From contig NZ_QTVN01000003.1 of NCBI RefSeq assembly GCF_003460605.1, forward strand, positions 288,619 to 352,618: DNA of 64,000 nucleotides, written 5' to 3'. The position numbers and the translations under genes are program-made. A model generated the notes under the pieces. It was not told where the DNA came from, searched no databases, and saw nothing but the letters and a program-made list of their open reading frames with translations. This stretch comes from Ruminococcus sp. AF31-8BH. GTDB taxonomy: Bacteria; Bacillota; Clostridia; Lachnospirales; Lachnospiraceae. Of the stretch, positions 12,131 to 50,239 are shown piece by piece. The number at the start of each line of letters is the position of its first letter. The first letter of the stretch is position 1.

Positions 12131-12196
12131 TGTACTTCCTCCTTTATTTCTACCTTATATCCTTTATCTCTAATCTTAGTCAATATACATGATACC

Positions 12197-12385
12197 AGTG
12201 TCAAAAGATCAAAAAGCTGTTCATGCTTGCACGATAAGGCTTTTGAGCTTGGGACACGCCAAATATGAGAAAGCAGCGATTTACATAGTAAATCAGCGGA
12301 TTTCGAATATTTGAAGAATTGTGGGAGCAGCATAGCTGCGGAACAATCCGGGTATCAAATGAGTGGCAAAATTCATTTTGACACT
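12197..12385. repeat. Palindrome-rich element upstream of ftsZ (possible MITE, 189 bp)
   Basis: The 363-bp gap between ftsQ and ftsZ has no gene. It is bounded internally by an exact 10-bp inverted repeat, AGTGTCAAAA (12197-12206) and TTTTGACACT (12376-12385). Inside are further hairpins: an imperfect stem near 12197-12255, GCAGCATAGCTGC at 12327-12339, and a near-perfect 30-bp palindrome at 12359-12388. No target duplication was seen, so mobility is a guess. The ftsZ promoter must lie here or upstream, and none is convincing. Confidence 0.45.
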
Positions 12386-46090: not shown

Positions 46091-46279
46091 GAGCATGTTT
46101 GAAAAAGGCTTTCTGCAAGATGTGTGTCACAATTTGTGGGAGATTTTGTCCGGATGAGGGCGCCGTAGCGGGCTACGGCAACTGAATTCGGGCAAAATCT
46201 CCCGCAAAGTGGGGGGTGCAGATTGCAGGAATGATTTTGGGGGCAGGCTCTAGAGCCTGTCTGCAACTCAGACATGCTC
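46091..46279. repeat. Long palindromic element forming most of the asnA leader (189 bp)
   Basis: The ends GAGCATGTTTGA (46091-46102) and TCAGACATGCTC (46268-46279) are inverted repeats with one mismatch. Inside, GGGAGATTTTG pairs with CAAAATCTCCC and GCCGTAG with CTACGGC around a central GGG, so the whole segment folds into one long imperfect hairpin. The right arm also contains AGGCTCTAGAGCCT. The ends match those of the 97-bp element at 7147. No T-box features (such as AGGGTGGNACCGCG) are present. No flanking direct repeat is seen. Confidence 0.65.
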
Positions 46280-46305
46280 CACCAACATCAACAAGGAGGA
46301 TTCCC

Positions 46306-47313
46306 ATGGAACAATTGAAAATTCCTATGGGCTATCATGCAGACCTTAATCTCCATGATACTCAGGTAGCAATTAAAACTGTCAAAGACTTTTTCCAGCA
46401 GACACTTGCCCAGAAGCTGAACCTTCTGCGTGTCTCCGCACCTATATTTGTAGACCCAAGCTCCGGCCTCAATGACAACTTAAATGGCGTGGAACGCCCG
46501 GTAAGCTTCGATATCAAGAATATGGAAGGCAATGCCGAGATCGTCCACTCCCTTGCGAAATGGAAAAGATACGCACTGAAGAAATACGGCTTCGCCCAGG
46601 GCGAGGGCTTATATACCGATATGGTTGCCATCCGCCGCGACGAGGACGTAGACAACATCCACTCCATCTATGTGGACCAGTGGGACTGGGAGAAGATCAT
46701 CTCCAAGGAAGAAAGAAACGTGGAAACACTGATCAATACTGTCCGCTCCATCTACAGCGTTCTTAGAAAGACCGAGAAATACATGGCTGTACAGTATGAT
46801 TACATAGAAGAGATCCTTCCAAGAGAGATTGCATTCGTTTCCACAGAAGAGCTTGTAGACATGTATCCGGACCTTACTCCTAAGGAAAGAGAATACAAGA
46901 TCGTCAAAGAAAAAGGTGCCGTTTTCCTTATGCAGGTCGGCAAGATGCTGTCCAATGGGGAGCGCCACGACGGACGTGCCCCGGACTACGATGACTGGGA
47001 ATTAAACGGTGATATTCTGGTATACTATCCGGTACTGGACATTGCCCTTGAGCTTTCCTCCATGGGTATCCGTGTAGACGAAACAGCACTTGACAAACAG
47101 CTTACAGAAGCCGGATGCGATGACAGAAGAGAGCTTCCATTCCAGAAAGCCATCCTGAACAAGGAGCTTCCATACACCATCGGCGGCGGTATCGGACAGT
47201 CCCGTATCTGTATGTTCTTCCTGCGCAAGGCTCACATCGGTGAGGTACATGTTTCCCTGTGGCCTAAGGAAATACAGGAGGAAGCTGCAAAGAACGGAAT
47301 TCCGCTTCTGTAA
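46306..47313 (+). CDS. asnA: Aspartate--ammonia ligase (asparagine synthetase A)
   Basis: A 335-residue class II aminoacyl-tRNA synthetase-like enzyme making asparagine from aspartate, ammonia and ATP. Family features are LNLLRVSAPIFVDPSSGLNDNLNGVERPVSFDI, in part, near residues 34-65. Others are EGLYTDMVAIRRDE, SIYVDQWDWEKII, ERHDGRAPDYDDWELNGDI (each read in parts) and the C-terminal motif 3 GGGIGQSRICMFFL. Length matches the family. AAGGAGG precedes the ATG. It is followed after 27 bp by the CBS gene. Confidence 0.97.
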   Translation: MEQLKIPMGYHADLNLHDTQVAIKTVKDFFQQTLAQKLNLLRVSAPIFVDPSSGLNDNLNGVERPVSFDIKNMEGNAEIVHSLAKWKRYALKKYGFAQGEGLYTDMVAIRRDEDVDNIHSIYVDQWDWEKIISKEERNVETLINTVRSIYSVLRKTEKYMAVQYDYIEEILPREIAFVSTEELVDMYPDLTPKEREYKIVKEKGAVFLMQVGKMLSNGERHDGRAPDYDDWELNGDILVYYPVLDIALELSSMGIRVDETALDKQLTEAGCDDRRELPFQKAILNKELPYTIGGGIGQSRICMFFLRKAHIGEVHVSLWPKEIQEEAAKNGIPLL

Positions 47314-47340
47314 ATCCATCAACGAAACGAGGGATTAAAA

Positions 47341-47751
47341 TTGAATATACTTTTTTTCCTAACACCGAAAAATGATGTTGCCTACATTTTCGAGAATGAA
47401 ACCCTGCGTCAGACCATTGAGAAAATGGAGCACCGCAAGTTCTCCTGTATTCCTATTCTGAATCCAGAGGGCAAATATGTAGGAACCATTTCCGAGGGAG
47501 ACCTTCTCTGGGGCATGAAGAATCTGAACATTACAGATATGAAGAGTGCTGAGGACATCCCGGTTATGGCGATCCAGCGAAGAGCCACCTACAAGCCGGT
47601 TCATGTTGACTGTGATATGGAGGATCTTCTGGACCGGGCCATCAACCAGAACTTTGTTCCGGTTATCGATGACCAGGATCATTTTATCGGAATCGTAACA
47701 CGTAAAGAGATCATCAAATACTGTTACAAAGAAATGAAGAAAAATGCCTGA
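47341..47751 (+). CDS. CBS-domain pair protein
   Basis: A 136-residue protein made almost wholly of two CBS motifs: KNDVAYIFENETLRQTIEKMEHRKFS with PILNPEGKYVGTISEGDLL (about 8-58), and a second near 75-130 ending DDQDHFIGIVTRKEIIKYC. CBS pairs usually bind adenosyl ligands. The start is TTG, with GAGGG about 7 bp upstream. Its position after asnA suggests one transcript. Confidence 0.85.
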   Translation: MNILFFLTPKNDVAYIFENETLRQTIEKMEHRKFSCIPILNPEGKYVGTISEGDLLWGMKNLNITDMKSAEDIPVMAIQRRATYKPVHVDCDMEDLLDRAINQNFVPVIDDQDHFIGIVTRKEIIKYCYKEMKKNA

Positions 47752-47822: not shown

Positions 47823-48569
47823 TTAAAGAACCTTGGATAAAAATTCCTTCAGACGCGGGTTCTTTGGATTTTCGAAAAATTCCTTAGGGGAATTCTGCTC
47901 CTGAATTTTTCCATCGTCAATGAACAGAACCCTTGTTGCTACCTCACGGGCAAATCCCATCTCGTGAGTAACCACCACCATGGTCATGCCGCTTTTGGCA
48001 AGCTCTTTCATCAGCTCCAGAACCTCGCCTACCATCTCCGGGTCCAGCGCAGAAGTTGGCTCATCAAACAACATCACATCCGGATTCATGGCAAGGGATC
48101 TTGCAATGGCAATACGCTGTTTCTGTCCGCCGGAAAGCATATCCGGGTAAGCATTTGCCTTGTCCGGAAGTCCTACGCGGGCAAGAAGTTCATCAGCACG
48201 CTTAGATGCCTCTTCTTTGGTCATCAGCTTCAGGGCAACCGGTGCCATCATAATGTTCTGCTTTACAGTTTTGTGTGGAAACAGGTTAAACTGCTGGAAA
48301 ACCATTCCGATTTTCTGGCGGTGACGGTTAATGTCAACCTTGGGATCAGTAATGTCCGTTCCCTCAAACAGGATTTTGCCGCCTGTGGGCACTTCCAGAA
48401 GATTCAGGGAACGAAGGAAGGTGGATTTTCCGGAACCGGAAGGTCCGATAATGGCAACAACCTCGCCCTGACAGATATCTGTGGAAATTCCATCCAGTAC
48501 CTGGTTTGCTCCAAATGCTTTCTTCAGATCCTGTACCTGGATCAAAACTTTGCTCTTATCAACGCTCAC
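47823..48569 (-). CDS. Polar amino acid ABC transporter ATP-binding protein
   Basis: A 248-residue GlnQ/HisP-type ATPase with Walker [11 protein letters not shown]-loop [14 protein letters not shown], signature [15 protein letters not shown], Walker [15 protein letters not shown] and switch [10 protein letters not shown]. The set fits amino acid importers of the PAAT family. It overlaps the end of the permease gene by 11 bp and is the last gene of the operon. Confidence 0.94.
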
Positions 48570-49251
48570 TGGTTCTCAGTCTCCTCTCCAGTTTATTCAT
48601 AAAGAAGGTCAGTACCATGACCACGATCAGGTAGATTGCAGCCGCTGCCAGAAGAGGCATAAATGCATTGTAGGTACGGCTCTGGATCAGCATAGCACCC
48701 TTGGTCAGGTCCATCATTCCGATGTAGCCGATGATGGATGTCTCCTTGATCAACACGATAAACTCATTTACCAGTGCAGGAAGCACGTTCTTGAACGCCT
48801 GCGGAATAATGATCAGACGCATAGTCTGGGTAAAATTAAGTCCAAGGCTTCGTCCTGCCTCTGTCTGTCCCTGGTCAATGGACATGATTCCGGAACGGAC
48901 GATTTCCGCAACGTATGCACCGGAGTTGATACCAAACGCCAGGCTTCCTACCAGGATTTCATTGACGCTGACAGATCCGAACACAACGAAGTTCATGATC
49001 AGCAGCTGGATGACGGTCGGGGTACCGCGGATGACAGTCAGATAAACCTTGCAGATCGCATTTGCAATCTTGAAGTTCCCGGATTTGTCATGGGAGGAAC
49101 GGATGATCGCAACAAGAAAACCGATGCAGATACCAATGAGAAGGGCAAATACAGTGATGATCATGGTGTTTTTCAGACCATCCAGAAGCCAAGTATATCT
49201 GTCATCTTTTATAAAATTGATATAAAAATCGTGTCCAAATTTTTCAAACAT
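48559..49251 (-). CDS. Polar amino acid ABC transporter permease
   Basis: A 230-residue HisMQ/GlnP-type permease with about five hydrophobic helices. It has [20 protein letters not shown] near residues 88-107 and the EAA-like loop [24 protein letters not shown] near 138-161. The N-terminus [22 protein letters not shown] is typical. It forms a homodimeric pore for the adjacent ATPase and the substrate-binding protein. AAGGA precedes the ATG. Confidence 0.93.
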
Positions 49252-49383: not shown

Positions 49384-50163
49384 TCAGTCAGCTTTTACAA
49401 TGATAACCTGGCTTGCGTTTGCATAGGTGTCTGTGAAATCAACGCTCTCCAGACGGTCCTCTGTAACAGTCATTCCGGCAGCACCGAAGTCAGCTTTTCC
49501 GGACTGTACAGCTGCAAGGATTGCATCGAATTCCATGTCGTCGATCTCAAGCTCATATCCAAGCTTGTCGCAGATTGCCTGTGCGATATCCGCATCAATA
49601 CCTACAATGGTGTCACCCTCACGGTATTCATATGGCTCGAACTCAGCGTTTGTAGCCATTATCAGTGTTCCATTGGAACGGTCAACATCTTCCGGGGACT
49701 CATATGGTGTCTCACCAATGTTGTCACCGATGTAGTTATTCATGATATCATCAACGGTTCCGTCTTCTTTGAGTTCCTCTAAAGCTCCGTTGATCTTGTC
49801 AAGAAGCTCGTCATTGCCTTTCTTCAGGCAGATTGCATACTCTTCTTCTACGAATGGCTCGTCTAAGATTTTCAGTCCGTCTGCGTTCTCAACGAATTTC
49901 TGAGCTGGCTGGGAATCGATGATCACACAGTCGATCTGTCCTGCCAGAAGTGCCTGGATTGCTTCGCTTCCTTTGCTGTAACGCTTAACAGTTGCGCCGT
50001 CTTTCTCATATTCACTTGCTTCAATATCACCGGTGGTTCCAAGCTGTACGCCGATGGTAGCGTTCTTAAGGTCATCCTTGGACTCGACAGTTGCAGCGGA
50101 TACGCCAGCTGTCATGGAAACTGCCATTACAGTGCCAAGTGCTAAAGCTGTTAATTTTTTCAT
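49384..50163 (-). CDS. Circularly permuted amino acid substrate-binding protein (SBP_bac_3 type)
   Basis: A 259-residue exported protein with signal peptide (1-24, MKKLTALALGTVMAVSMTAG). Residues 28-146 match what is normally the C-terminal half of family 3 binding proteins: KDDLKNATIGVQLGTTGDIE, GSEAIQALLAGQIDCVIID, EEYAICLKKGNDELLDKING, LKEDGTVDDIMNNYIG. After a linker (147-165), residues 166-259 match the normal N-terminal half: GTLIMATNAEFEPYEYREGD, IVGIDADIAQAICDKLG, MEFDAILAAVQSGKADF, AAGMTVTEDRLESVDFTDTY. The order is therefore swapped. There is no lipobox cysteine. AGGAGG precedes the ATG. Genes for a polar amino acid permease and ATPase follow. Confidence 0.93.
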   Translation of the reverse strand: MKKLTALALGTVMAVSMTAGVSAATVESKDDLKNATIGVQLGTTGDIEASEYEKDGATVKRYSKGSEAIQALLAGQIDCVIIDSQPAQKFVENADGLKILDEPFVEEEYAICLKKGNDELLDKINGALEELKEDGTVDDIMNNYIGDNIGETPYESPEDVDRSNGTLIMATNAEFEPYEYREGDTIVGIDADIAQAICDKLGYELEIDDMEFDAILAAVQSGKADFGAAGMTVTEDRLESVDFTDTYANASQVIIVKAD

Positions 50164-50239
50164 ATTTTTTCCTCCTCTTAATTGTATGCAGGAATAATTA
50201 TGCATAGTTCCCGCATATTCATTCATCTATCTTTCCCCC

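Follow-up and report, generated by a model that had tools for sequence, protein, structure and literature searches.

What is a binding protein whose lobes are encoded in the wrong order: a working subunit of an importer, a broken gene, or an error of assembly? This question is raised by a stretch of 64,000 nucleotides from the Blautia-like gut bacterium Ruminococcus sp. AF31-8BH (contig NZ_QTVN01000003.1, positions 288,619 to 352,618; here called the window), in which a gene on the minus strand encodes a substrate-binding protein (SBP) of the SBP_bac_3 family with its parts exchanged. The evidence points with high probability to a functional secreted SBP of a polar amino-acid ATP-binding cassette (ABC) importer, a circular permutant of SBP_bac_3 in which a single hinge crossing is left.

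Segment order of the window protein

In ordinary proteins of GlnH/HisJ topology the chain crosses between the two lobes twice, and three segments can be named: N, the N-lobe to the first hinge strand; C, the core of the C-lobe; and T, the return hinge strand with the C-terminal helices. The ordinary order in SBP_bac_3 is N-C-T, while the window protein reads C-T-linker-N. The gene, its parts and the two importer genes beside it are the following (basis in brackets).

49384..50163, minus strand: circularly permuted SBP_bac_3 gene, 259 aa, P0001 (open reading frame (ORF), Pfam, structure-sequence matches, rotation test)
49384-49386, minus strand: stop codon of this gene (sequence)
50171..50178, minus strand: ribosome-binding site AGAGGAGG ahead of the ATG at 50163 (sequence)
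50095..50163, minus strand: signal peptide, residues 1-23, with the probable cleavage end VSA-A and without a lipobox (sequence)
49882..50091, minus strand: segment C, C-lobe core, residues 25-94, ordinarily in mid-protein (structure-sequence matches, module scan)
49723..49875, minus strand: segment T, return hinge strand and C-terminal helices, residues 97-147, ordinarily the protein end (matches, secondary structure of the model)
49675..49722, minus strand: new linker from the old C-terminus to the old N-terminus, with the motif PYESPEDVDRSN (sequence)
49387..49674, minus strand: segment N, N-lobe to first hinge strand, residues 164-259, after which the protein ends (matches; last strand E248-257 in the model)
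48559..49251, minus strand: polar amino-acid ABC permease, BPD_transp_1 and HEQRo_perm_3TM (profile matches)
47823..48569, minus strand: ABC ATPase, GlnQ-like (profile matches)

The exchange is visible in comparisons with ordinary relatives. The PF00497 profile matches the window protein with 125.4 bits against a gathering score of 26.4, in two stretches, and residues 167-259, at the end of the chain, correspond to positions 1-93 of the 132-column profile. In phmmer comparisons with solved structures (e.g. 4zv1 and 6svf), residues ~161-259 align with the N-lobe and ~25-146 with the C-lobe and tail of ordinary SBPs, as two separate stretches in reversed order. Among the best 60 of 109 and of 131 structures, a single stretch spans both segments only in the GlnPQ tandem 6h30, since this tandem contains a C-T-N stretch across its linker.

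Rotation of the chain gives further evidence. Against the ordinary N-C-T profile, the mature protein scores 159.8 bits over columns 99-221 of 221 when unrotated, and 319 bits over columns 1-221 of 221 when rotated at residues 120-136 of the mature chain (59 rotations tested); a gain of this size across the full profile excludes a chance match or a biased reading. Rotation thus restores a full-length match to the parent family, as is characteristic of circular permutation. The same holds beyond the window: of 71 stand-alone C-T-N proteins, 70 gain in best single-domain score when their segments are reset to N-C-T, and the median score of ordinary proteins drops from 352 to 162 bits on rearrangement to C-T-N. 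Because its chain order is C-T-N, the window protein is a permuted homologue and not an ordinary member of SBP_bac_3.

The first-pass annotation, made from the letters of the window, had given the coordinates of the gene correctly and had described it as a circular permutant cut near the hinge; separate alignment of the segments and the rotation test bear out the reversed order, and the cut lies exactly at the first hinge crossing. It had also recognised the linker, whose length it put at 19 residues, whereas the module scan gives 18. Over 97 distinct C-T-N proteins the linker measures 16-23 residues, with 18 or 19 in 80 of them.

Conservation of the order and of the importer operon

Near-identical or identical copies of the protein occur in many assemblies, and the best 120 of 7994 protein matches include named relatives in Blautia schinkii and in Ruminococcus sp. 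5_1_39BFAA. Scanning reference genomes yielded 76 loci with 78 ORFs matching a lobe: 46 are ordinary, 23 C-T-N, 2 of a second permuted type described below, and 7 single-lobe; the C-T-N loci include Blautia wexlerae, B. glucerasea and B. schinkii. In the genus of a B. wexlerae genome, 48 of 64 genomes carry a near-full-length contiguous permuted match and in 2 more it is cut by contig ends. In a sample of the family such a match is present in 81 of 397 genomes (one partial, one frameshifted and one multi-domain match being left out), of which 58 have a stand-alone frame, 26 a frame of about 500 aa or more, and 3 both. At E <= 1e-55, a permuted match was found in 14 of 391 genomes of the class. 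The search for homologues proposed by the first-pass annotation thus finds the same order as a lineage-wide form.

Several permuted copies lie on chromosome-sized contigs, e.g. of 4.69 Mb (G068:C1) and 3.74 Mb (G020:C1). The ratio of nonsynonymous to synonymous substitution rates (dN/dS) against the homologue at locus L001 is about 0.05, with about 0.06 in C and T together and 0.03 in N, values that indicate purifying selection.

These data bear on the reading of the swapped order as an artefact of contig joining, an assembly error or the cut-out middle of an N-C-T-N-C-T gene. In its favour are mixed proteins of the metagenome set (C-T-N-C-T in 37 and N-C-T-N in 7 of 238), many of them on short one-member contigs, where chimeras may occur. 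Against it are the order shared by 48 of the 64 genus genomes and by chromosome-sized contigs, the gene's own start, stop and signal peptide, the low dN/dS, and the lack of lobe remnants in the scanned flanks described below. For the lineage an artefact is refuted, and the probability left to it here is minute; the assembly join that the first-pass annotation had named as what would overturn its reading is contradicted by the same order across the genus. A frameshifted or split ordinary gene was also considered and ruled out by the flanks of the stand-alone permuted genes, scanned in the three coding-strand frames over the downstream gap (or 150 bases) and 400 bases upstream: no lobe remnant was detected there, the best E being 1.7 or worse, except at locus L132, where a second permuted gene lies upstream. 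At this locus (L132 and L184; genome G180, contig C48, 57944-59680) two permuted SBP genes stand side by side.

The context of the gene is that of an importer, as previously annotated, with permease and ATPase on the same strand. The permease matches TIGR01726 with 62.5 bits, above the cutoff of 42.2, and the ATPase scores 323.9 bits with the GlnQ model, below its cutoff of 379; a HEQRo_perm_3TM permease with a GlnQ-like ATPase alongside is the composition of a PAAT-type importer operon. Permease and ATPase adjoin 67 of 71 stand-alone C-T-N genes, that of the window included. The remaining four are one gene that runs into a contig end, one (L132) that stands ahead of a second permuted gene, and two for divergent permuted SBPs (L186:3512-4294 and L188:3602-4381) whose 8-kb loci contain no matching permease gene.

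Upstream of the permuted gene, and divergent from it, lies dapF. Two further features of the window stand outside the operon.

46216-47751, plus strand: asnA and a CBS-domain gene (CbpB model, under cut-off), beyond the importer operon
12190-12357, plus strand: Clostridiales-1 RNA, RF01699 (123 bits)

All three neighbours, asnA, the CBS-domain gene and dapF, surround the operon at 12 of the 18 longer loci from the first scan, and a further 5 of these loci have one or two of the three; none was found at 9 more distant stand-alone loci or at 20 loci of permease-fused forms. This pattern indicates that the operon was inherited in place within the Blautia group only. A link of the asnA/CBS neighbourhood to asparagine or cyclic di-AMP would be a guess.

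The anchoring of the protein is less uniform than its neighbourhood. By pattern, a lipobox is present in 64 of 65 stand-alone ordinary proteins, 19 of 20 of the second permuted type, 41 of 71 stand-alone C-T-N proteins and 18 of 26 fused ones, counts obtained with a rough pattern (at least two fused proteins scored as lacking a lipobox show a plausible one by eye, and L102 may be a false match due to upstream extension of the frame). The window protein lacks one, as had been noted before, there being no cysteine in MKKLTALALGTVMAVSMTAGVSAA..., and so do 29 of the 70 other stand-alone C-T-N proteins and most Blautia rows.

Lacking a lipobox in a cell bounded by one membrane, the window protein could be a secreted amino-acid sink or sensor instead of a transport subunit. 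For such a role speaks that the lipobox is missing by pattern from 30 of the 71 stand-alone C-T-N proteins but from 1 of the 65 stand-alone ordinary proteins and 1 of the 20 proteins of the second type, as do L186 and L188, which stand without such a permease in 8 kb, although both carry a lipobox by pattern. The regular company of permease and ATPase, at the window locus too, and the fact that relatives of the same order are lipoproteins or permease-fused argue for the transport subunit and make a sink or sensor improbable.

Hinge, permease fusions and a second permutation

AlphaFold2 models the window protein with confidence (pLDDT 88.3, pTM 0.82), and residues 1-21 are the only part with values below 50. 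The last strand of the model (248-257) is the first hinge strand, and the return strand (105-109) is continuous. Sequential structure comparison gives a TM of up to 0.48, the permutation itself setting a limit to Foldseek and VIA; VIA ranks OpuAC 2b4l first (210 residues aligned), level with a LysR-type domain. The residues T43, T44, D83, F175, F212, G230, T232 and R237 are invariant in 22 aligned permuted proteins; we take these residues to have roles in the pocket, and R237 and D83 align with AncQR.

The chain is opened at the first hinge strand, and the linker of about 18 residues bridges the old termini on the N-lobe side, with both new termini at the hinge. The return strand would therefore be the only covalent crossing between the lobes, in place of the usual two, with cleft and ligand residues kept. 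The permuted SBP probably still closes on an amino acid and docks on its own permease; ligand-dependent closure with a changed hinge would be expected.

A domain-swapped dimer, in which the cleft would close between the N-lobe of one chain and the C-lobe of its partner, is a different way of assembling the same parts. Dimerisation by segment swapping has been described for a permuted half of ribose-binding protein (PMC9815098, accessible part), and the linker is probably long enough for such an exchange. On the other side, the confident single-chain model suggests that the lobes pack within one chain, and 26 fused proteins tie one domain to one permease chain; both observations are compatible with some swapping, which we regard as unlikely.

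The window protein can be compared with several known systems. With ordinary SBP_bac_3/PBP2 proteins (GlnH, ArgBP, AncQR 4zv1) it shares three homologous segments, the pocket residues and the type of operon; it differs in the order C-T-N instead of N-C-T, in the termini at the hinge and in the absence of a lipobox. The glycine-betaine binders OpuAC and ProX are Type II binding proteins, the type to which PF00497 is also assigned. They are permuted relatives of each other, reported with CPSARST (PMC2395249, accessible part), so that permutation occurs there likewise, and OpuAC is the top VIA row mentioned above; the accessible part of the paper on L. lactis OpuAC (PMC2861598) contains no word starting with 'permut'. 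TpMglB-2 (Tp0684), of 'Type Ic / Cluster Bc', is a natural circular permutant that, in the accessible part of its description, binds ligand and changes conformation, and its topology is reported from numerous Gram-positive species, of which many are gut commensals (PMC4990184). It resembles the window protein as a natural permutant of the binding protein of an ABC importer, but it has the Type I sugar-binding fold of another family and is a tethered lipoprotein. The Pfam matches of the window protein are PF00497 and relatives, without Type I homology, and it is thus no member of Type Ic / Cluster Bc; by analogy it would work like TpMglB-2 without being one. Natural permutants are already known in other SBP families, and here the case of SBP_bac_3 is added.

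The permuted domain also occurs joined to its permease. Among the 97 distinct C-T-N proteins, 26 have 497-583 aa, and their permease begins a few residues past the hinge strand of the N-lobe, which is the new C-terminus; this proportion is not a frequency, because the fused loci were fetched for their long frames. In the family sample fused forms are present in 26 of 397 genomes. Frames of 500-540 aa had been considered as two-domain tandems, the expected intermediate of a duplication, and the module scan resolved them into one permuted domain and a permease. In addition, several samples of Clostridia contain SBP_bac_3 proteins permuted in another way: here the cut lies at the other hinge strand, and the order is T-N-C.

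L153-L171, L173-L178 and L182: the 26 permease-fused C-T-N ORFs
L025:5917-6723, L026:5860-6729 and L193-L207: proteins of the second type (T-N-C)

A permuted gene apparently split by a frameshift was seen at L181:2907-4488, with C in one frame and T-N-permease in another.

In ordinary GlnPQ the tail helices lead into the membrane part. Its tandem substrate-binding domains (SBDs) are fused to the permease (6h30; PMC8025302, accessible part), an arrangement of SBD and permease as in the fused C-T-N proteins. Each GlnPQ domain, by contrast, has the ordinary order, while the fused C-T-N proteins have a single permuted domain joined by its hinge end.

For the second type, resetting to N-C-T raises the best-domain score in 18 of 20 proteins, and again only 6h30 spans both segments among the best 60 of 217 structures. 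The T-N-C order is found in 112 of 238 metagenome proteins. With the ordinary and the two permuted forms, all three cyclic orders of the segments N, C and T exist.

Origin of the permuted forms and their meaning

The history of the permuted forms was followed in two trees. The SBP tree was built on 209 reordered columns with 95 of 186 rows, picked to cover all groups. In it, 35 of 38 C-T-N rows form one starred group, which adjoins 25 ordinary rows of the family sample, including L172 (joined at 80% support only). Both permuted types are split, with 2 changes for C-T-N and 3 for T-N-C; approximately unbiased (AU) tests reject a single clade for neither (p 0.80 and 0.62; the constrained trees score higher, and one long row was omitted). 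The permease tree (89 rows; 4 proteins without a found permease omitted) requires 8 changes for C-T-N, at least 3 of them forced by starred branches, which may reflect either several origins of the permutation or a reshuffling of permeases and SBP orders by exchange of SBP genes. The new termini may, as the first-pass annotation suggested, alter docking to the permease. The permeases of some permuted proteins fall among those of ordinary proteins, evidence that a special permease is not strictly required. The permutant would have arisen in the ancestry of the Blautia group of Clostridia and may later have been fused to its permease or separated from it.

A tandem duplication trimmed at both ends, as proposed by the first-pass annotation, is the simplest account of the origin and a plausible one. 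Duplication and trimming is a described model of circular permutation (PMC3320104, accessible part), and it fits L172:2410-5313 (minus strand), a protein of 967 aa with three similar ordinary domains in tandem fused to a permease, whose three copies group together in the SBP tree, as a triplication does. The half-trimmed intermediate and flank remnants expected from this account did not appear: one query of the 397 genomes (P0057, E <= 1e-100, at most 4 candidates scored per genome) found no half-trimmed gene and no full-length C-T-N-C-T, 13 of the 14 matching genomes giving rows that end at residue 263-274 of 389 and one covering only 162-389. The C-T-N-C-T metagenome proteins were set aside as duplication intermediates, as none is full-length in these genomes and many may be chimeras.

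Fission and refusion, or recombination between paralogues, could have produced the same order and is a considerable possibility, though not the favoured one. The missing half-trimmed form and the clean flanks agree with it, and the reciprocal C-T-N-C-T and N-C-T-N metagenome forms resemble crossovers inside the N-lobe. The in-frame domain triplication in the neighbouring ordinary lineage, with its copies grouping together, favours duplication instead; lobes as separate genes were not seen either, though no search was aimed at such genes.

Metagenome proteins with more than one round of the three segments include P0057, P0088, P0012 and others, and P0123 reads T-N-C-T-N on a contig of 23.6 kb; they may be real intermediates, recombinants or assembly chimeras. 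A further open frame of 1137 aa, at L085/L092 (genome G002, contig C4), holds several SBP_bac_3-like segments in tandem.

Among the open-access titles and abstract openings listed, no report of a natural SBP_bac_3 permutant was found, a weak negative since subscription papers and preprints lie outside that search, of which hinge-strand cuts and permease fusions of permuted domains were not separate topics. The permuted proteins are annotated with the plain PF00497 tag, so that annotation by domain hits alone hides the permutation in about a fifth of the sampled family (81/397).

A wider, tentative reading, which we hold to be doubtful, is that the fold of clostridial amino-acid SBPs is a three-segment ring that has been opened at each joint, both hinge strands included, more than once; each opening would shift the site of anchoring or fusion, the place of opening would tune hinge stiffness, tether geometry and uptake, and an importer of the Venus-flytrap type would need neither hinge strand individually.

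Amino-acid binding proteins serve as models of hinge machines, and many biosensors are built on their scaffold; their closing motion is usually ascribed to the two-strand hinge. Among its natural homologues the family has some in which this hinge is intact, others in which its first strand is cut and others again in which its second strand is cut, and some of them lie beside related permeases; together with the permease fusions at the hinge end, these variants make the role of each hinge strand and of the anchor site testable in wild-type proteins.
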